From Candidatus Woesearchaeota archaeon (GTDB lineage Archaea > Nanobdellota > Nanobdellia > Woesearchaeales > GW2011-AR9): DNA of 11,582 nucleotides. The notes below the pieces were generated by a model. The model was not told the origin of the DNA. It searched no databases and was given only the letters and a program-made list of their open reading frames with translations. The position numbers were made by a program, and so were the translations under genes. The DNA lies in assembly GCA_016203215.1 (NCBI GenBank), contig JACQNF010000042.1, positions 1-11,582 of the forward strand. Reading direction: 5' to 3'. Positions 2,224-9,192 of the stretch are shown here, in pieces (within the stretch, counting starts at the first letter, position 1; each line of letters opens with the position of its first letter).

Positions 2224-3306
2224 TCAGAGGGTAAGATAATTTGCTGCCCAGAGCAAGCCTTGATCACAGGTGTAGAGAGGAGTCTTATAGGGCAAACCTT
2301 CTTTAGTATACACTTCGAGGTAATTTCCTGCCTTCTCAATCATTTCTGTGTAGCGTTGCCGATACAGCGCAGCTTTATCTTTATCAACGTGCTGCAGCAG
2401 TTTAATGTACAACGGGCCCATATGCGCCCAGACCGTATCACTTTCATAATTAGGCATCAGCTTCTCTTGCCAGACAAAATGAACATGACGTCGGGAAGAG
2501 GTATAACGTAAAGGAAATGGCTCCGCTAACCCTGCCCCCTCAATTGCTTGAATGGCAGCATGAAGTATCTCCTCATCACGAATCAAGCCAGTTATGAAAG
2601 GAAAGAGATTGGCGTCCCCCGCAACATATCCTTTTTTTGTAAGATCATCGTAAAAGAATGACCCATTCCAGAAATGTTCTTGAAGTAGAGCGGGATAATT
2701 GTACTTTTCAAATGGGCTGACTAATTTTAACTGTTCCAGGTCCGCAGCAAGCATCCCCACCATGCAATTATCGTAACACGAGCTTTTTCTCACGGCAAAA
2801 TCTTTCATCGACGAGACCTGTAAATCTGGCTGGACCAGCCCGGTAACCGGGTTAATAAAATCCTTGAAAAAGCGCTGGACCTGAAGATTCAGGAATCCAC
2901 GATGCTCATAGTGAGGAAATGACGAGAGACGGATACTGTGGATGAGCCACGGCAGTGAATCGACGGCAGGAGAAGGGAAATCAAAAGGTTTTCCCGCAGG
3001 AGAAATCGTCGTCGTAATGGTGTTATAGTGTTTAAATCGATTGAGTGCATAGCGTAAGGTTTGATGCACTTTTTCTTCGTGTCCTAATTTCATCAAGGAT
3101 TGCGTACACCAGCCAAAATCCCGCGTCCAAAATTGGGGGAAATTATGTGTCGACGTCTGAAAAAAACGCCCATTCCAACAATCTGCCACCGTTAGCTTAC
3201 AAACATCATCTGCCGTCCCATAATAGCGATGTGGCTTGATCTTGTTCTTAAGTCCGGTAAGGAAAATACGAGTACCTTGCGTAGCATAGAGGAGCGGCGA
3301 CGTCAT
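2224..3306 (-). CDS. Six-hairpin glycosidase-like protein
   Basis: This 360-residue protein looks like an (alpha/alpha)6-barrel glycoside hydrolase, the fold shared by glycogen-debranching enzyme, trehalase-like and invertase-like families. Characteristic pieces are FPQFWTRDFGW (56-66), AVDSLPWLIH (114-123), SSCYDNCMVGMLAADLEQL (175-193), GDANLFPFITGLI (230-242), YESDTVWAHMGPLYIKLL (287-304) and CDQGLLWAANYL (347-358). Likely acidic catalytic candidates are D63, D116 and D179, but I cannot assign which act. No signal peptide is visible, so action is probably cytosolic. A glycosyltransferase lies just downstream on the same strand and another lies divergently upstream, which fits a glycan-related role. 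The substrate is unknown. Possible activities include alpha-glucan debranching, trehalose or sucrose-like hydrolysis, or glycan trimming. Confidence 0.82.
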   Translation of the reverse strand: MTSPLLYATQGTRIFLTGLKNKIKPHRYYGTADDVCKLTVADCWNGRFFQTSTHNFPQFWTRDFGWCTQSLMKLGHEEKVHQTLRYALNRFKHYNTITTTISPAGKPFDFPSPAVDSLPWLIHSIRLSSFPHYEHRGFLNLQVQRFFKDFINPVTGLVQPDLQVSSMKDFAVRKSSCYDNCMVGMLAADLEQLKLVSPFEKYNYPALLQEHFWNGSFFYDDLTKKGYVAGDANLFPFITGLIRDEEILHAAIQAIEGAGLAEPFPLRYTSSRRHVHFVWQEKLMPNYESDTVWAHMGPLYIKLLQHVDKDKAALYRQRYTEMIEKAGNYLEVYTKEGLPYKTPLYTCDQGLLWAANYLTL

Positions 3307-3327: not shown

Positions 3328-3337
3328 CTATAAAAAG
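3328..3337 (-). promoter_or_regulatory. TATA box of the glycosidase-like gene
   Basis: Minus-strand CTTTTTATAG is centred near 3332, 26 nt before the ATG at 3306. No Shine-Dalgarno sequence lies next to the start, so a leaderless mRNA is predicted. The box lies 15-24 bp outside the left end of palindromic element A. Confidence 0.6.
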
Positions 3338-3351
3338 ATATAGGTGAATGG

Positions 3352-3538
3352 GTACGTATTTAGTTCGCTACGCCGCTTCGGCGGGCGGGCCGTCTGTCTC
3401 GCGGAGAATATCTGATGTGTAAGTGGGTTGAAGAAAAAATGTTTAGAAAGATATTCTCCGACCATAACTACTCTGCTTTGCTCAGTAGATCGAGACAGAC
3501 CGATTGGCCGTGCCCGCCATGACAAACTAAATACGTAC
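3352..3538 (+). repeat. Palindromic element, copy A
   Basis: A 187-bp structured element in the divergent intergenic region 3307-3608. The ends form a perfect 14-bp inverted repeat, 3352-3365 against 3525-3538. Further inward, 3380-3386 pairs with 3512-3518, 3388-3391 with 3506-3509, 3392-3401 with 3491-3500, and 3402-3413 with 3449-3460. The 3' arm carries an extra side hairpin (3468-3472 with 3484-3488), and a local hairpin CGCCG-CTT-CGGCG can form at 3371-3383. Bases 3356-3518 align without gaps to copy B, offset by 5014, with about 138 of 163 identical. Taking the shared core as 3356-3534, GTAC lies directly on both sides, which may be a target duplication. No transposase is encoded. It may be a MITE-like repeat or a structured RNA/DNA element. 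Confidence 0.85.
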
Positions 3539-3576
3539 GGTGACGTAATAGGTCCAAGATCAATTTGCGAGCGAGA

Positions 3577-3588
3577 AATATATAAAAA
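3577..3588 (+). promoter_or_regulatory. BRE/TATA promoter of the second GT2 gene
   Basis: GCGAGAAATATATAAAAAAA holds a BRE-like purine stretch followed by a strong TATA box centred near 3582, 27 nt before the ATG at 3609. A leaderless transcript is predicted. The promoter lies about 40 bp outside the right end of palindromic element A. Confidence 0.65.
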
Positions 3589-3608
3589 AAGACCTGTTTT
3601 GAACAAAA

Positions 3609-4454
3609 ATGGATACCGTTACACATCAAGCGCTTTCAGATACGACGCTCACGATGATTGTTCGAGATGAGCTGATGAATCCGGCAGGGGGATTACTTCC
3701 CATGCTAGAATACCATCTCCCTTACTTTCCAGAGGCCGTCGTTGTCGATACCGGTTCTGTGGACGGAACACGTCAATTGCTTGAGCATCTGCAACAAGAA
3801 TATCCTCATCTCCGCGTCGAGGACCATCAATTTGTAGGCTTTGGCCGCGCACGAACCTATGCCAATTCCAAGGTTAGAACGAGATACTCCATGATCCTCG
3901 ATGCAGATGAAATGATCTCGTCGATGGATAGTTTGGCTCATGATATTAATACCGTTGCGGCAGAAGCAGAACAAAAAAGTGTTCGTTACAGCTTACATTT
4001 CGACTTCTTATGGATTCCGACACAGGGTGCGCCATCTCTTCGCAACGAAAATGTCCTTCGTCTCCGTCTCTTCCCCCAGAGCCAAGTACGATTTTTCTAT
4101 GGTGAGGTGTACGAATACCCAAATACATTGTCCCCATTTACCATCACGTCGACTGCTAAAACAGTGCTAAGACATTTTGTACCTGAACGTGATCTTAAAA
4201 AAAGGCTACAGTTTTATCGCCCTCTCATGGATATTGGTATCAATACCAGCTATGAAAAGAGATTTCACCAAATCAGGAAACTGGGGCCCCCTTCCTCAAA
4301 AGAAGGGTTTGCCTCGTGGAAAACACCAAATCCTGCTGTTTTAAGAACGTATGGAATAAACCTCGATGAAATCCTTGGTAAAATCCATCAACTGGGATTA
4401 CACGTTGATCCACGAATTAGGGAAAGACTGGAGAACACCAAAACCTCGCCGTAA
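3609..4454 (+). CDS. Glycosyltransferase, GT2-like
   Basis: A 281-residue GT-A type glycosyltransferase related to family 2. The N-terminal region LTMIVRDE (14-21) corresponds to the short GT2 branch that starts with I.VKNE-type sequences. The nucleotide-binding loop is VVVDTGSVDGTRQ (44-56), GFGRARTYANSKV (77-89) is the usual approach helix, and ILDADE (96-101) supplies the DxD-type metal site. The C-terminal 100 residues are helical and basic, with no clear membrane helix. The DTGSxDGT plus LDADE combination resembles enzymes adding sugars to lipopolysaccharide-like or glycoprotein glycans in bacteria, but donor and acceptor are not predictable here. Its own promoter places transcription start at the ATG. 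Confidence 0.87.
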   Translation: MDTVTHQALSDTTLTMIVRDELMNPAGGLLPMLEYHLPYFPEAVVVDTGSVDGTRQLLEHLQQEYPHLRVEDHQFVGFGRARTYANSKVRTRYSMILDADEMISSMDSLAHDINTVAAEAEQKSVRYSLHFDFLWIPTQGAPSLRNENVLRLRLFPQSQVRFFYGEVYEYPNTLSPFTITSTAKTVLRHFVPERDLKKRLQFYRPLMDIGINTSYEKRFHQIRKLGPPSSKEGFASWKTPNPAVLRTYGINLDEILGKIHQLGLHVDPRIRERLENTKTSP

Positions 4455-4455
4455 A

Positions 4456-4465
4456 CTATATAAAG
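4456..4465 (+). promoter_or_regulatory. TATA box of uL11
   Basis: CTATATAAAG starts just after the stop codon of the preceding glycosyltransferase. Expected transcription start is near 4486, leaving a leader of about 46 nt before ATG 4532. So uL11 is probably transcribed independently, and unlike several neighbours its mRNA has a real 5' leader. Confidence 0.6.
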
Positions 4466-4520
4466 AGACCACTTTTCTACTGATAGTTACGCACGCGCTT
4501 CAAGATTAAACGATTATTAT

Positions 4521-4526
4521 AGGTGA
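4521..4526 (+). promoter_or_regulatory. Shine-Dalgarno site of uL11
   Basis: AGGTGA sits 5 nt before ATG 4532. It overlaps the in-frame GTG at 4523, which argues that this GTG is part of the ribosome binding site and not the start codon. Confidence 0.75.
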
Positions 4527-4531
4527 CATTC

Positions 4532-5242
4532 ATGGCAAAACAAGCAGTAGAAGTCCTCATCGAAGGCGGTAAAGCAACGGCAGCGCCGCCACTGGGTCCG
4601 GCTCTCGGTCCAACCGGAGTTAATATCGGCCTGGTCATTTCTGAAATTAACAAGAAAACAAATGATATGAAAGGAATGCAAGTTCCTGTCAAGGTTGTTA
4701 TTGATACCGCGACCAAAGAGTTTCTCATTGAAGTTGGTACTCCGCCGGCATCGGCTCTGATCAAGAAAGAAGCAGGAATTGAAAAAGGGGCAGGAAACCC
4801 TCTACGAGAAAAAGTTGCTGATCTTCTCATCGAGCAGATCATTAAAATCGCCAAAATCAAAGAAGACAATCTTCTCGGAAAAGATTTAAAACGAAAAGTA
4901 CGTGAAGTTATTGGGACATGCCAATCGATGGGCATTCTTGTCGAGGGCATGCCAGCGCAAGACGCTCTTAAAGCAATTGCGGAAGGTCGCTTCGATCAGA
5001 AGATTAAAGCAGGACGTACAGAACTGACTGAAGAAGAGAAGAAACATCTCCAAGAAGAAAAAGCACGCCTGCAGAAAGAATTGGAACGACAAAGAGCAGA
5101 ATTCGAAACACGAGCAAAAGAGATTGTCAAAGCCAACGAAGGCAAGGAACCGAAGAAGATCCGTTCTGCACTCTTGGAAGCGGGTATTCCAATGAAGATC
5201 GTGGACGAATTAGTGCCGCCAGAAGCGAAAGAGAAGAAATAG
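4532..5242 (+). CDS. rpl11: 50S ribosomal protein uL11 with long C-terminal extension
   Basis: uL11 binds the GTPase-associated region of 23S rRNA and forms the stalk base where translation factors act. The N-terminal domain has EGGKATAAPPLGPALGPTGVNI (11-32) with the usual Gly/Pro-rich linker to the stalk base. The C-terminal RNA-binding domain is recognisable through GTCQSMGILVEG (128-139). The usual archaeal protein ends around residue 160; this one has 236 residues. The extra 75 are a charged coiled-coil helix (about 164-200) followed by a short helical module, KKIRSALLEAGIPMKIVDEL (208-227). The start is ATG 4532, giving MAKQAVEVLIEGG with a good Shine-Dalgarno site. The customary partners uL1 and uL10 do not follow. 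Confidence 0.95.
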   Translation: MAKQAVEVLIEGGKATAAPPLGPALGPTGVNIGLVISEINKKTNDMKGMQVPVKVVIDTATKEFLIEVGTPPASALIKKEAGIEKGAGNPLREKVADLLIEQIIKIAKIKEDNLLGKDLKRKVREVIGTCQSMGILVEGMPAQDALKAIAEGRFDQKIKAGRTELTEEEKKHLQEEKARLQKELERQRAEFETRAKEIVKANEGKEPKKIRSALLEAGIPMKIVDELVPPEAKEKK

Positions 5243-5245
5243 GTT

Positions 5246-5258
5246 CTTTTTTTATTTT
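5246..5258 (+). terminator. Oligo-T terminator of uL11
   Basis: Four bases after the uL11 stop comes CTTTTTTTATTTT, with seven uninterrupted T residues. This is a typical archaeal U-run terminator. It overlaps the stop codon (TAA, 5252-5254 on the minus strand) of the convergent small membrane protein. Confidence 0.6.
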
Positions 5259-5488
5259 CCTTTACTTTCTTTTCCAGCAACTTTTGTTTCTTTTTCTAAT
5301 TCTTCGCGCTTTACATGCGAAGAGAGATGATACATATTCTCTAAAGAAGTGATGACATTCTTCATCTTATTCATCTGCTTGATGAACACAAAGAGCATAA
5401 TCACTGCTTCGATCAAAATAATGATAATAAGAACAGCAACGGTAAAAATGACTTCTACTAAAGGAATATCAACACCAAAGACTAACAT
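5252..5488 (-). CDS. Small single-pass membrane protein, unknown function
   Basis: 78 residues: a short start MLVFGVDIPLVE, one strongly hydrophobic segment (about 12-36), then a charged helical tail (37-78) rich in K and E with short coiled-coil potential. No enzyme motif is seen. The protein is acceptable as a real gene because it has a clean TM-plus-helix design, its own TATA box and no overlap with its neighbours' coding regions. Small proteins of this shape occur in DPANN archaea, but I cannot name a family. It converges on uL11 with a 9-nt gap. A GAGGAG sequence lies 12 nt upstream of the ATG, somewhat far for a Shine-Dalgarno site. Confidence 0.72.
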   Translation of the reverse strand: MLVFGVDIPLVEVIFTVAVLIIIILIEAVIMLFVFIKQMNKMKNVITSLENMYHLSSHVKREELEKETKVAGKESKGK

Positions 5489-5527
5489 TCTCTCATCACA
5501 CTCCTCTGAGAAGGGATGTCTATGGGT

Positions 5528-5536
5528 GTTATAAAG
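5528..5536 (-). promoter_or_regulatory. TATA box of the small membrane protein gene
   Basis: Minus-strand CTTTATAAC centred near 5532 predicts transcription start near 5506 and a leader of about 18 nt before ATG 5488. The rest of the 170-bp gap (5489-5658) shows no other clear gene or structure. Confidence 0.45.
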
Positions 5537-5658
5537 ATTTCGCAGGCAGGGGTGTGTTTAGTTTGTTATTCACTTAGAGTTTCTCAACAGCGGTAATAGA
5601 TACAAAAAGCCGTTTCTTGAAGAAAAACACGTCAACCTCTTCTTTTGAAAATATTTTT

Positions 5659-8295
5659 TTATTTCCAAAAATCAAAGAACCGCATTCGGTTATTGATCAT
5701 CTTCAACACATCAAACACGATAATTAAGATCAATCCCGCAGATCCTGCAAGAATCCAATCCACTACAAGAAGAGGTACAGTTTCAAAGATTTGATTTAGC
5801 GGTGTATACAGAATAAGAAACGTCGCCGCAAGAGAGATCAGGGAAGCAAAGAAGAGGTACTTGTTGGTAAAGAGAGACCGAGAAAAAAAACATTTCCGGA
5901 AAGAACGAAAATTGAATGCAGAAGCAATCTGAAGCAAGATCAAGGACACAAGCGCGGTCGTCCGAGCGACGTCGATCTCGTTGCCAAAGATGTTGAACGA
6001 AATGTAAAATACCGCCAGAATCAGCGCAGCACTGATGCCGCTCGTAAAGAAGAGCAAGAGAAAAACGTTCCGAGAGAGTAATTCTGTTCCCTTCCGAGGA
6101 GTTTCATTCATCACGTCTGTTGACGGCGGATTCAAGCCGAGAGTGATCGCCGGTAAATTATCCGTAACTAAATTGATAAACAGAATCTGCAAGGCCAACA
6201 ACAACGGAATCTGCCATCCTAATACCGAAGCAAGAAGAACGCCAAAAAAAAGGATCGCTAATTCGGTCAAATTACACGACAGTTGATAAGTCACAAATTT
6301 TCGGATGTTACGATAGATTGTACGCCCTTCTTTGATAGCACTGACAATCGTGTTAAAATTATCATCTTTGAGGATAAGATCAGCCGCCTCTCGTGAAACA
6401 TCTGTACCTGCCTTGCCCATCGCCACCCCGATATGCGCTTCTTTCAACGCTGGCGCGTCGTTGACACCATCACCGGTCATCGTGACAATCTCACCAAGAG
6501 ATTTCAACGCCTTGACGATGCGTAATTTGTGTTCTGGCTGCACCCGTGCAAAGATGGAAATATTCGAAATTACTTTCCGCAATTGGGATTCTGTCAGTCT
6601 TTCCAATTCTTTTCCTTCCATCACCTTCCCGTGCAAGTTAATCTCAGAAGCAATTGCCAATGCCGTTTCTTTATTGTCACCCGTAATCATCTTGACAGAA
6701 ATTCCCGCTGCGCGGCACTGAGCAATCGCGTCTTTCACTGCTTCCCGTGGGGGATCTTCCATCCCTACAAACCCAAGAAAAACAAGCTCTTCATCTAAAT
6801 CTTTTTGAGAAGAGACACGCTCTTTTGTGGCAATGGCCAGTGTACGTAACGCGCGCGAGGTCATCTGCTGATTCTGAGCAAGGAGCTGCTGCTTTTCTCT
6901 TGCAGAGAGAGGAACAACGCCGCTCAGCTTCTGGACGGATGAGCACTTCTCCAAGACCATTTCAGGAGCGCCTTTTACAAACACAATCCTCTTCTTGCCA
7001 AGACTACAGAGAACAGACATCATCTTTCGTTCTGAACTAAAAGGGATCTCTTCGAGACGAGTGAACTTCAAATCATCTTTGAAGATTCCTGCCTTTGCCG
7101 CGAGGATGAGCAAGGCTACTTCTGTCGGCGTGCCGATACCTCGGAAAAAATGATTCTCGCCGGTCCGTTCAATCCGCGCATCGTTACAGAGCACAACCGC
7201 TTTTAATAGCTGAGATAGCAATGGGTGCGCCGATGCTTTCATTAACCGATTTCCTAATGTAAAGTCGCCGTTGGACGTGTATCCAATACCACTGACAGAA
7301 ATATTCTCGCCGCCGACAACAACATTGCGGACGGTCATCTCTCCTTTCGTGATCGTGCCGGTCTTATCGGAACAGATGACGGTTGTTTCTCCCAAAGTCT
7401 GGATAATCGACATCCGGTTGACGATTGCATTTTGTTTCGCCATCCGCCGCGCACCAAACGCAAGAGCAGTGATCAGGACGACGGGAAGCCCTTCTGGAAA
7501 AGCAGAGACAGAGAGGGCGATGATTAAAATAAGAACTGAAACAAGGAAAGCAGGTGTGAGAGAGTCTGCCTGTAAGACCATCAACAAGCCCGTCAGTATC
7601 GAGACAGCAAGAGCAACAATTGCCATGTATTTCGCCACGGCATTTACTTTTTTCTGTAACGGCAATTCTTTTTCTGCGGTGGAAATCATCTTGGCAATGT
7701 TCCCGAAACGCGTGTTCATCCCTGTATGCTGGACTTCCGCAACGCATTTACCATCGGCAATAAACGACCCCATATAGAGTACGTTTTGCTCGGTTGTCTT
7801 CTTCCGAGATTGCATCGCTTCTTTCCGTATTTCTTTCGCCTCGCCCGTGAGGATCGATTCATTCACGACAAGGTCTTTCTCCTCCAGAACAAGGCAGTCC
7901 GCCGGCACTTTCTCGCCACTTCGAAGAATAATAATATCACCCGGCACGAGCTCCAGAGACGGCACGTCTCGTTCTTTGCCATCACGGATGACGATCGAAA
8001 CGGGAAAAATCATCTTCTTCAGCGCTTTGATCGCTTTATCGGCTTTATATTCTTGAATGAAGCCGACGCCGATAACCATCACGATCACAAAGAGGATGGT
8101 ATACGCGGTAATATCTTTCCCTACAAAAAAAGAAATAAACACTGCCCCCAGGAGAAGATAGACAATAAAATTATTCCGTATTTGCCTTAGAAGAATCTTT
8201 ACGATCGTCGTCCGAGAAACCTCACGGATCTCATTAAGCCCATACTGTTGCAGTCTCTTTCTTGCTTCGGATGCCGATAAACCTCTTTTTTCCAT
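5659..8295 (-). CDS. P2-type cation-transporting ATPase, probably Ca2+ exporter
   Basis: 878-residue P-type ATPase of the SERCA/PMCA class, using ATP to move cations across the cytoplasmic membrane. The N-terminal cation-ATPase domain (GLSASEARKRLQQYGLNEI, 5-23) is followed by about ten membrane segments. The phosphorylation site is SDKTGTIT with Asp310; KGAPE (441-445) is in the nucleotide domain; MITGDN (536-541) and TGDGVNDAPALKEA (607-620) form the hinge and Mg2+ region. Ca2+-type ligands are present: PEGLP in M4 (E268), N675 and E678 in M5, and N708, T711 and D712 in M6. The position matching SERCA Glu908 in M8 is Gln789, as in plasma-membrane-type pumps. The actuator loop reads TGEA (150-153) where TGES is usual. 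It has no obvious regulatory tail. Substrate is inferred. Confidence 0.93.
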   Translation of the reverse strand: MEKRGLSASEARKRLQQYGLNEIREVSRTTIVKILLRQIRNNFIVYLLLGAVFISFFVGKDITAYTILFVIVMVIGVGFIQEYKADKAIKALKKMIFPVSIVIRDGKERDVPSLELVPGDIIILRSGEKVPADCLVLEEKDLVVNESILTGEAKEIRKEAMQSRKKTTEQNVLYMGSFIADGKCVAEVQHTGMNTRFGNIAKMISTAEKELPLQKKVNAVAKYMAIVALAVSILTGLLMVLQADSLTPAFLVSVLILIIALSVSAFPEGLPVVLITALAFGARRMAKQNAIVNRMSIIQTLGETTVICSDKTGTITKGEMTVRNVVVGGENISVSGIGYTSNGDFTLGNRLMKASAHPLLSQLLKAVVLCNDARIERTGENHFFRGIGTPTEVALLILAAKAGIFKDDLKFTRLEEIPFSSERKMMSVLCSLGKKRIVFVKGAPEMVLEKCSSVQKLSGVVPLSAREKQQLLAQNQQMTSRALRTLAIATKERVSSQKDLDEELVFLGFVGMEDPPREAVKDAIAQCRAAGISVKMITGDNKETALAIASEINLHGKVMEGKELERLTESQLRKVISNISIFARVQPEHKLRIVKALKSLGEIVTMTGDGVNDAPALKEAHIGVAMGKAGTDVSREAADLILKDDNFNTIVSAIKEGRTIYRNIRKFVTYQLSCNLTELAILFFGVLLASVLGWQIPLLLALQILFINLVTDNLPAITLGLNPPSTDVMNETPRKGTELLSRNVFLLLFFTSGISAALILAVFYISFNIFGNEIDVARTTALVSLILLQIASAFNFRSFRKCFFSRSLFTNKYLFFASLISLAATFLILYTPLNQIFETVPLLVVDWILAGSAGLILIIVFDVLKMINNRMRFFDFWK

Positions 8296-8340
8296 ACAAC
8301 ACCGATGAAACGTTAAAAAGCACGGATGATAATGACGACA

Positions 8341-8353
8341 GCCTTTATATTCT
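8341..8353 (-). promoter_or_regulatory. Probable TATA box of the P-type ATPase gene
   Basis: Minus-strand AGAATATAAAGGC centred near 8347 predicts transcription start near 8321 and a leader of about 26 nt before ATG 8295. Only a weak GGTG precedes the start. The box lies 17-29 bp from the left end of palindromic element B. Confidence 0.45.
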
Positions 8354-8369
8354 TTACTTCTATTCGTTT

Positions 8370-8551
8370 GTATTTAGTTCGCTACGTCGCTTCGGCGGGC
8401 GGGCCGTCTGTCTCGCGGAGAATATCCGATGTATGAATGGGTTAAAGAAAGACTGTTCAAAAGGCTATTCTCCGACAATAAACTCTCTGCTTCGCCTAGT
8501 AGTTCTCGACAGACCTCTTGGCCTTGCCCGCCGCGACGACGAACTTAATAC
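8370..8551 (+). repeat. Palindromic element, copy B
   Basis: A 182-bp element homologous to copy A and in the same orientation. Terminal inverted repeats of 12 bp with one mismatch are 8370-8381 and 8540-8551. Inward pairings are 8385-8390 with 8533-8538, 8394-8400 with 8526-8532, 8402-8405 with 8520-8523, 8406-8412 with 8508-8514, and 8416-8424 with 8466-8474. The first 55 bases differ from copy A at one position only (T8387 for C3373), which turns a C-G pair of the local hairpin into a T-G wobble. It fills most of the gap 8296-8550 and ends on the first base of the stop triplet of the next minus-strand gene. No clear flanking target duplication is seen. Confidence 0.82.
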
Positions 8552-9192
8552 TACTTCTTCCTCTTCCCGACCAGCGTATATGGCCGAACAACATCATTTC
8601 CGTCCAAGAAAACACTCGTACTAGATGCACAGAACGTACACCATGCTGCACGAGTGAGAGGGCGGTCCACAGCATTTTCTCGAACATAGTCCGGGTTGAG
8701 CATATAGATGCGTAACGAAGGAATCCCTTCTTGCTGAAACGTTTTCATTGTTCTTGCAAAAGTCTCGCCTCGACCATAGACCCGCTCTACTACCATTCGT
8801 TCTTCTCTCAAAAGTTCGTCCACTGCATCGGGCGCAAATTCCAAGCGACGCCATTCTGGTTCGTTGCCCTGTAATCGTAACCTCGTCAAATTGATGCGAA
8901 GCGTGTCGTTTGCTTTCATGGCCGCCTTCGCGTCTCGCACATCGGGAAAGAAGTTGCCGCTTCCCTGTGTTAATTGCAGATATGAATTTTCCCTGTCATC
9001 GTCCAAATGTCGAAGGACGAGATTCTGCGGCTCACGTGTTAACCATAACGTTGGAATTTTCTTCTTTCCTTCGACAGAATAGAGCGGACCATCGGCAGTA
9101 TAAAACCAGCGTGTTCGCAAAAGGGGGTCATTTGCTTCCATCACCATTGCAGTCAATTGATCTGCATGAAAGAAAGACCTGGTTCCAAACAA
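8551..9192 (-). CDS. Hypothetical protein of about 213 residues
   Basis: I do not recognise the family. The product is soluble, with no signal peptide or membrane segment. It has a mixed beta/alpha pattern in the first half (RTRWFYTADGPLYSVEGKKK near 26-45, IPTLWLTREPQNLVLRHL near 46-63) and charged helices later (AVDELLREERMVVERVYGRG near 123-142). Two cysteines fall together in WCTFC (185-189). The longest reading starts at TTG 9192 without a convincing Shine-Dalgarno or TATA signal. Internal ATGs at 9147 and 9141 are alternatives, and a stop lies seven codons upstream of the TTG. It follows Cdc48 on the same strand after 75 nt and could be co-transcribed with it. Its stop codon abuts element B. 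Confidence 0.65.
   Translation of the reverse strand: MFGTRSFFHADQLTAMVMEANDPLLRTRWFYTADGPLYSVEGKKKIPTLWLTREPQNLVLRHLDDDRENSYLQLTQGSGNFFPDVRDAKAAMKANDTLRINLTRLRLQGNEPEWRRLEFAPDAVDELLREERMVVERVYGRGETFARTMKTFQQEGIPSLRIYMLNPDYVRENAVDRPLTRAAWCTFCASSTSVFLDGNDVVRPYTLVGKRKK

Follow-up and report, generated by a model that had tools for sequence, protein, structure and literature searches.

A family of palindromic MITEs in a Woesearchaeota genome ends at a fixed distance from the TATA box of neighbouring genes

Here we describe a family of short mobile elements in the genome of a Candidatus Woesearchaeota archaeon, whose copies end at a fixed distance, most often exactly 14 nt, from the TATA box of an adjoining gene. 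As a pattern, this fixed spacing is firmly established. It constitutes the main finding of the work and was absent from the initial annotation of the stretch of DNA under study (11,582 nucleotides, hereafter the window), in which two homologous, highly structured intergenic elements had been recognized.

Both window copies have the same orientation. The first was correctly placed at 3352 to 3538 (187 bp, forward strand, ends GTAC...GTAC), whereas the second, originally delimited at 8370 to 8551, is better bounded at 8366 to 8555 (190 bp, forward strand), because the four outer bases are part of the element; the two are included in a 17-copy alignment, A2. A recount of the ungapped alignment first reported between 3356-3518 and 8370-8532 gives exactly the same 138 identical positions of 163, and a repeat search finds 84% identity across 168 nt. 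The inverted ends were also rightly seen, since the first 20 bases pair with the opposite end at 16 of 20 positions in copy 1 (left terminal inverted repeat at 3352-3371, forward strand; right one at 3519-3538, reverse strand) and at 12 of 20 in copy 2 (8366-8385, forward strand; 8536-8555, reverse strand). In agreement with the earlier statement that no protein is encoded, no ORF of at least 60 aa lies inside either copy, those that cross them extending into the flanks.

On the left of copy 1 stands a gene of 360 aa with no Pfam match (2224-3306, reverse strand; ORF and Pfam evidence), whose TATA box, at 3330-3337 on the reverse strand, starts 14 nt outward from the left end of the element, the best site in the blind PWM scan described below being at 15. 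A glycosyltransferase family 2 gene lies on the other side (3609-4454, forward strand), with its own TATA-like motif at an offset of about 40. The left end of copy 2 faces a P-type cation ATPase gene (5659-8295, reverse strand; ORF and Pfam evidence) through the TATA-like AATATAAA at 8344-8351, reverse strand, which also starts 14 nt outward; this motif was assigned by eye, and the blind scan preferred a site at 46. The right end is overlapped by the stop codon of an ORF of 213 aa with no Pfam match (8551-9192, reverse strand; ORF and Pfam evidence).

The element is about 188 bp long, with ends GTNNGTATTTAGTTCGCC...GGCGAACTAAATACNNAC, and the suggestion that two copies in the window meant many in the genome proved right. 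Searched as DNA against the assembly that contains the window (650 kb in 93 contigs, 83% complete), copy 1 has 61 matches at E <=10, 21 of them covering 144 nt or more of it, and the end pattern with at most two mismatches finds 86 matches, against 3 for a reversed control. These 86 were fetched in part (C11, C93, C85:1385 and C80:3930, for instance, were left out), and the family set studied comprises 27 two-ended copies and 26 further single ends. Seventeen of the two-ended copies, the window's two among them, measure 186-190 bp and have a mean pairwise identity of 79%; the ten others are variants, of which three have been lengthened by inserts to 274-311 bp and seven shortened by internal deletions to 64-113 bp. 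Throughout the two-ended set the outer four bases vary, the consensus ends being GTAC...GTAC with extended complementarity. A miscalled copy, C14a, was removed from this set before the duplication test and was later counted as a single end, while the single ends went from 30 to 26 when L072:174, L002:1719 and two in L003 were dropped before the TATA scan. The genes adjoining the single ends look like host genes, as judged by eye from the first 60 residues in the ORF listing.

Some copies depart from the common form. In a second form of the element, the 3′ arm is extended by a hairpin module of about 85 bp. Eight places match this module (L020, L008/L077, L075, L076, L078, L079, L080 and L081), and four of these begin at the first base of a contig; the copy L020, which bears the module, has the perfect duplication AAATTTCC and a fold z of -6.7. 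As read by eye, L023 (C62:3327-3597) has an insert of two hairpins in the apical loop and L021 (C43:5328-5630) one of roughly 120 bp in the 3′ arm. Moreover, columns 139-144 of alignment A2, in the right arm, show two common alleles, TCGAGA and TCTCGA, as if the hexamer had been inverted in place.

The spacing to the TATA box was determined with cross-trained motif models, the one from single ends scanning the two-ended copies (up to 100 nt on both sides) and vice versa, because sites chosen by eye were to be avoided. In this blind scan, the best site of the 27 two-ended copies lies at exactly 14 nt in 13, at 12-16 in 19 and at 10-17 in 22, the remaining five having theirs at 45, 46, 50, 65 and 82. 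Among the 26 single ends, 15 have it at exactly 14 nt and 19 at 11-14, and the other seven at 6, 7, 7, 20, 29, 38 and 55. Counted over 54 ends, with overlaps included, outward TATA-like motifs give 48 matches at 10-19 nt versus 11 at the other 90 positions together; the inward-facing motif, intended as the control, has a peak at 10-19 as well (32 matches). The near-palindromic nature of the motif accounts for this, so that the inward count is no independent control. When 24 copies are aligned by the element end, the TATA box occupies positions 15-22, with A at 11 (19/24) and at 12 (15/24), base counts that come from those of the 27 copies chosen because a TATA-like motif begins 9-21 nt away from one end or both. 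Furthermore, the distance to the start codon has a SD of 14.4 nt versus 1.7 for the distance to the TATA box (n=36), the latter being narrowed by the choice of the 36 ends for a site at 9-21. Both orientations occur: 16 of the 27 copies have the TATA box next to their right end and 11 next to their left, with some of the sides assigned by hand.

The flanks of the copies speak for mobility. Over 8 bp, the two sides of the 27 two-ended copies are 58.8% identical, whereas shuffling of left and right flanks among copies brings the figure to 27.1% (z 9.2, 0/5000), and the other duplication widths from 4 to 13 give z of at most 3.8 (3.8 at width 7, 1.5 at width 9). With slips of up to 2 allowed, 12 of the 27 match at 7-8 of the 8 bases (shuffled mean 0.66, maximum 4 in 1000). 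Perfect unslipped duplications are found in six copies, L009, L010, L012, L019, L020 and L026 (TGGTCCGA, TTATTTTC, GTTAAAAG, AAGACCGA, AAATTTCC, TTTATTCT). The window's own copies have poor duplications, reaching 5 of 8 with slips, and are therefore probably old. Around copy 1, the decayed repeats are GGTGAATG at 3343-3350, slipped by one base, and GGTGACGT at 3539-3546, which match at 5 of 8 positions, a signal that is weak in this copy and strong in the family.

Empty sites were compared for two insertions. At the syntenic locus of the Woesearchaeota relative L045, where the L11 protein is 91% identical, copy 1 is missing and the promoter, TATAAAAAGATAT, is like that of the window, the TATA box at 3330-3337 being kept. 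Likewise, two genomes of the same genus, G001 and G002, are without the L010 copy and have a TATA box at the same promoter (CAATCTTTATATAG and AAATTTATATAC, respectively). The search of related genomes that had been put forward as a check on the family came back empty: with one copy (L015) as query, none of 58 relatives, G001 and G002 included, gave a match at 1e-5. The same query had no match among phages and plasmids, nor did the right-arm pattern in viral contigs. In turn, the 14-mer of the terminal inverted repeat, with at most one mismatch, matches 44 times in this genome and at most twice in any of 286 other genomes of the order, a sample that excludes G001 and G002. As far as searched, the amplification thus appears to be confined to this species.

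The MITE nature of the family is firm. The initial annotation had offered two options, a MITE-like mobile repeat and a family of structured RNA; the first is upheld, the elements being short and non-coding and showing terminal inverted repeats, 8-bp target duplications, a multicopy state and empty sites in relatives, and the second is not supported, for the reasons given below.

As to the origin of the spacing, we consider it likely that a non-autonomous MITE is integrated in a targeted manner at the TATA/BRE, with a transposase acting in trans. The element is a non-autonomous DNA transposon of about 188 bp, forming over its whole length a branched palindrome, and the transposase, presumably supplied in trans and not encoded by the element, would act on its symmetric ends; because these ends are alike, insertion would occur in both orientations. 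A staggered cut of 8 bp just upstream of the BRE would leave the element ending 14 nt before the TATA box, so that the spacing would be imposed by the transposase complex itself, the likely guide being either TBP/TFB on the promoter or the TATA/BRE DNA. Such targeting would leave the coding regions and core promoters of a compact genome untouched and so allow the family to build up many copies, and the single ends found beside promoters would be remnants of deletions.

Regarding the guide, two variants of targeted integration are to be weighed. In an archaeal promoter, such a cut would fall near position -44, at the upstream limit of the DNA that TBP and TFB occupy. The transposition complex may dock on TBP and TFB at the TATA/BRE and cut at this upstream edge, in which case each copy would mark a promoter occupied in vivo; we hold this to be a little short of an even chance. 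Alternatively, the transposase might read TATA-like DNA directly, by its sequence or bendability and without TBP/TFB, a serious possibility that we nevertheless regard with some doubt. The copy L026 leans a little towards direct reading, since it has a perfect duplication and lies between genes that are apparently convergent (from rough ORF calls), and yet has the TATA-like TCTTATAG about 15 nt from one end. It is the sole case that separates the two variants, and an antisense promoter is possible at that place. Against direct reading, the yeast element Ty3 shows, in the account of PMC8632968, that guidance by factors exists.

Other readings dispense with targeting. It could be argued that insertion was random and that selection, or lack of space, left only the copies just upstream of promoters, given that intergenic gaps are short (the median room upstream of the TATA box is 53 nt) and that copies landing in genes or core promoters would not survive. 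Short gaps, however, predict a broad spread. When copies are placed uniformly in the room upstream of the TATA box, as measured from rough ORF calls with rough starts, 3.43 of 27 are expected at 12-16 nt and the maximum in 200000 simulations is 11, against 19 observed in the blind scan, or 24 when sites are assigned by hand. The sides and offsets of all 27 copies in this simulation were entered from earlier results, those of L004, L013, L019, L023 and L026 by hand against the blind scan; as several offsets were hand-set, the blind 19 of 27 is the count to use. Moreover, four of the six copies with perfect duplications (L009, L010, L012 and L020) have their best blind site at 14. In the other two, L019 and L026, it lies elsewhere (65 and 82), although the next blind site of L026 is at 14 and a weaker TATA-like motif is found at 17 in L019. 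Altogether, we find random insertion followed by selection improbable as the source of the spacing.

Even less credit can be given to the idea that copies are held at a fixed distance because the end sequence was adopted as an upstream regulatory site. The existence of 26 single ends, 19 of which face a TATA box at 11-14 nt in the blind PWM scan, would agree with it, but the far end is the one that would be lost in any case, since deletions at the near end would harm the promoter. Furthermore, either end of a two-ended copy can face the promoter, and the outer four bases are variable. The spacing is also seen in full copies whose duplications are intact, which suggests that it was set at the time of insertion.

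The strong structure ascribed to the elements at the outset is real, and it raises the question of a function as RNA. Copy 1 folds at -79.8 kcal/mol (z -5.9) and copy 2 at -79.2 kcal/mol (z -6.4), with 0/200 shuffles as good in either case; folded as DNA, copy 1 reaches a z of -7.4. The RNAalifold consensus contains 46 pairs in five helices, with 96.9% of cells paired versus 95.7% in shuffled alignments (0/500 shuffles), and paired columns are 95% conserved versus 77% for unpaired ones. Pairs changed on both sides number 6 of 46, a count reached by 32/500 shuffles, and the cells with such changes 11, reached by 1/500, while further pair types are no higher than in shuffles (251/500). G-U exceeds A-C in cells (31 vs 12), but hardly in pairs (13 vs 10), so that there is no clear strand bias. 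This covariation is modest and reads as the upkeep of a palindrome in a mobile unit, for which an RNA function is not required. A leader RNA or riboswitch of the facing gene is rejected, as the elements lie upstream of its TATA box, outside its transcript, and in both orientations. That they form a family of structured RNAs or cis-acting RNA elements, perhaps within the 3′ end of the upstream gene's transcript, where they may lie, is the least credible reading of all, since against the stable folds (copy 1, copy 2 and L020), the excess of paired cells, the conserved paired columns and the G-U cells stand this placement, the weak covariation, the near parity of G-U and A-C pairs, and the lack of any Rfam match at gathering score over the whole window.

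Targeted integration at a fixed distance from promoters has precedents in other domains. Bacterial Mutator-like transposases of the p-MULT 3 and 4 groups (TnGBS, ISLre2 and the ISKra4 group, or part of it) are described as inserting 15-17 bp upstream of the sigma-A -35 box, with duplications of 8-9 bp and inverted repeats of 18-39 bp that have a terminal C; where the repeats are near-symmetric, promoters occur on either side of the element, and ISLbu1 was found in both orientations (PMC3942029). On the features there described, the MITE family shares with them the 8-bp duplication, the repeats ending in C (GTAC...GTAC), the fixed promoter spacing and both orientations, and differs in being non-autonomous and spaced 14 nt from an archaeal TATA/BRE, not from a sigma-A -35 box. 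It looks as though the family works like the p-MULT elements, and it looks like an archaeal TATA/BRE counterpart of bacterial promoter-targeting Mutator-like elements; membership is not claimed. According to the same source, archaeal ISH6 duplicates an AT-rich motif and might favour promoter regions, with no fixed spacing given in the portion available (PMC3942029). An ISKra4-type insertion sequence is present in another family of the same order (L091:1087-2824; L090/L091, genome G049), with a Mutator-like transposase, 26-bp inverted repeats (81% complementary) and a 9-bp duplication, CGTACCCAC; its end sequence is different from that of the MITE family, and this single copy has no clear TATA at 14 nt.

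In eukaryotes, the Ty3 retrotransposon is reported to integrate upstream of genes with base-pair precision, TBP and the TFIIB relative Brf1 being the minimal targeting factors (PMC8632968). The likeness lies in this precise integration upstream of genes; Ty3, as described there, is a yeast retrotransposon that inserts 2-3 bp from the start site of genes transcribed by RNA polymerase III, whereas the present family is a DNA element at archaeal protein-gene promoters, where docking on factors may be involved. The word "archaea" is absent from the available portion of a review of retrotransposons at RNA polymerase III genes (PMC5911963). Among archaeal MITEs, SM1-SM4 of Sulfolobus are described as short, non-autonomous elements with inverted ends, present in 25-44 copies (review PMC10969869). 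Our family resembles them in its short length, lack of autonomy, inverted ends and tens of copies; unlike it, they carry no mention of a TATA spacing in the available portion of that review, where "TATA" has 0 occurrences. In the open-access literature searched, a scope outside which most subscription papers fall, we found no report of fixed-distance insertion at archaeal TATA/BRE promoters.

The best guess for the transposase is a Mutator-like partner, because the geometry of the family matches that of the bacterial Mutator-like elements. PF13610 has no match in this genome, where alone it was searched. PF00872, NF033572, PF10551 and PF06782 likewise give none in this 83% complete genome and, across 39 genomes, hit only one ISKra4/UPF0236 gene, in G049. 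With six families searched in the 83% complete assembly in 93 contigs, no autonomous partner with matching ends was found. PF01609 detects one IS5-like fragment of 72 aa at the end of contig C67 of this genome, which was rejected as the partner transposase, as the adjoining element end reads GGCTCTGTAGAA and not as the MITE ends. The GGCTCTGTAGAA ends belong to a second element family, seen at L093:1070-1264 (the C67 contig end), L080 2585, L063 89-98 and L041 1717. Of five hits in the loci examined, two (C67 and L080) have plain genome as their outward flank; in both, the end is followed at 16 nt by the start of a TATA-like motif, so that the spacing to promoters may be common to this second family.

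Fixed-distance transposition aimed at promoters is already on record for the sigma-A promoters of bacteria and for the RNA polymerase III genes of eukaryotes. If targeted integration is the right reading, the family would link mobile DNA to the archaeal core transcription machinery, and the choice between factor-guided and DNA-guided targeting would become directly testable. The archaeal core transcription factors are homologous to the eukaryotic ones that are used by Ty3. If docking on these factors holds, the family would represent a DNA-transposon counterpart of Ty3 targeting in Archaea. The copies would provide a map of promoters in the genome of an uncultured DPANN archaeon, and potentially a promoter-seeking tool for insertion.
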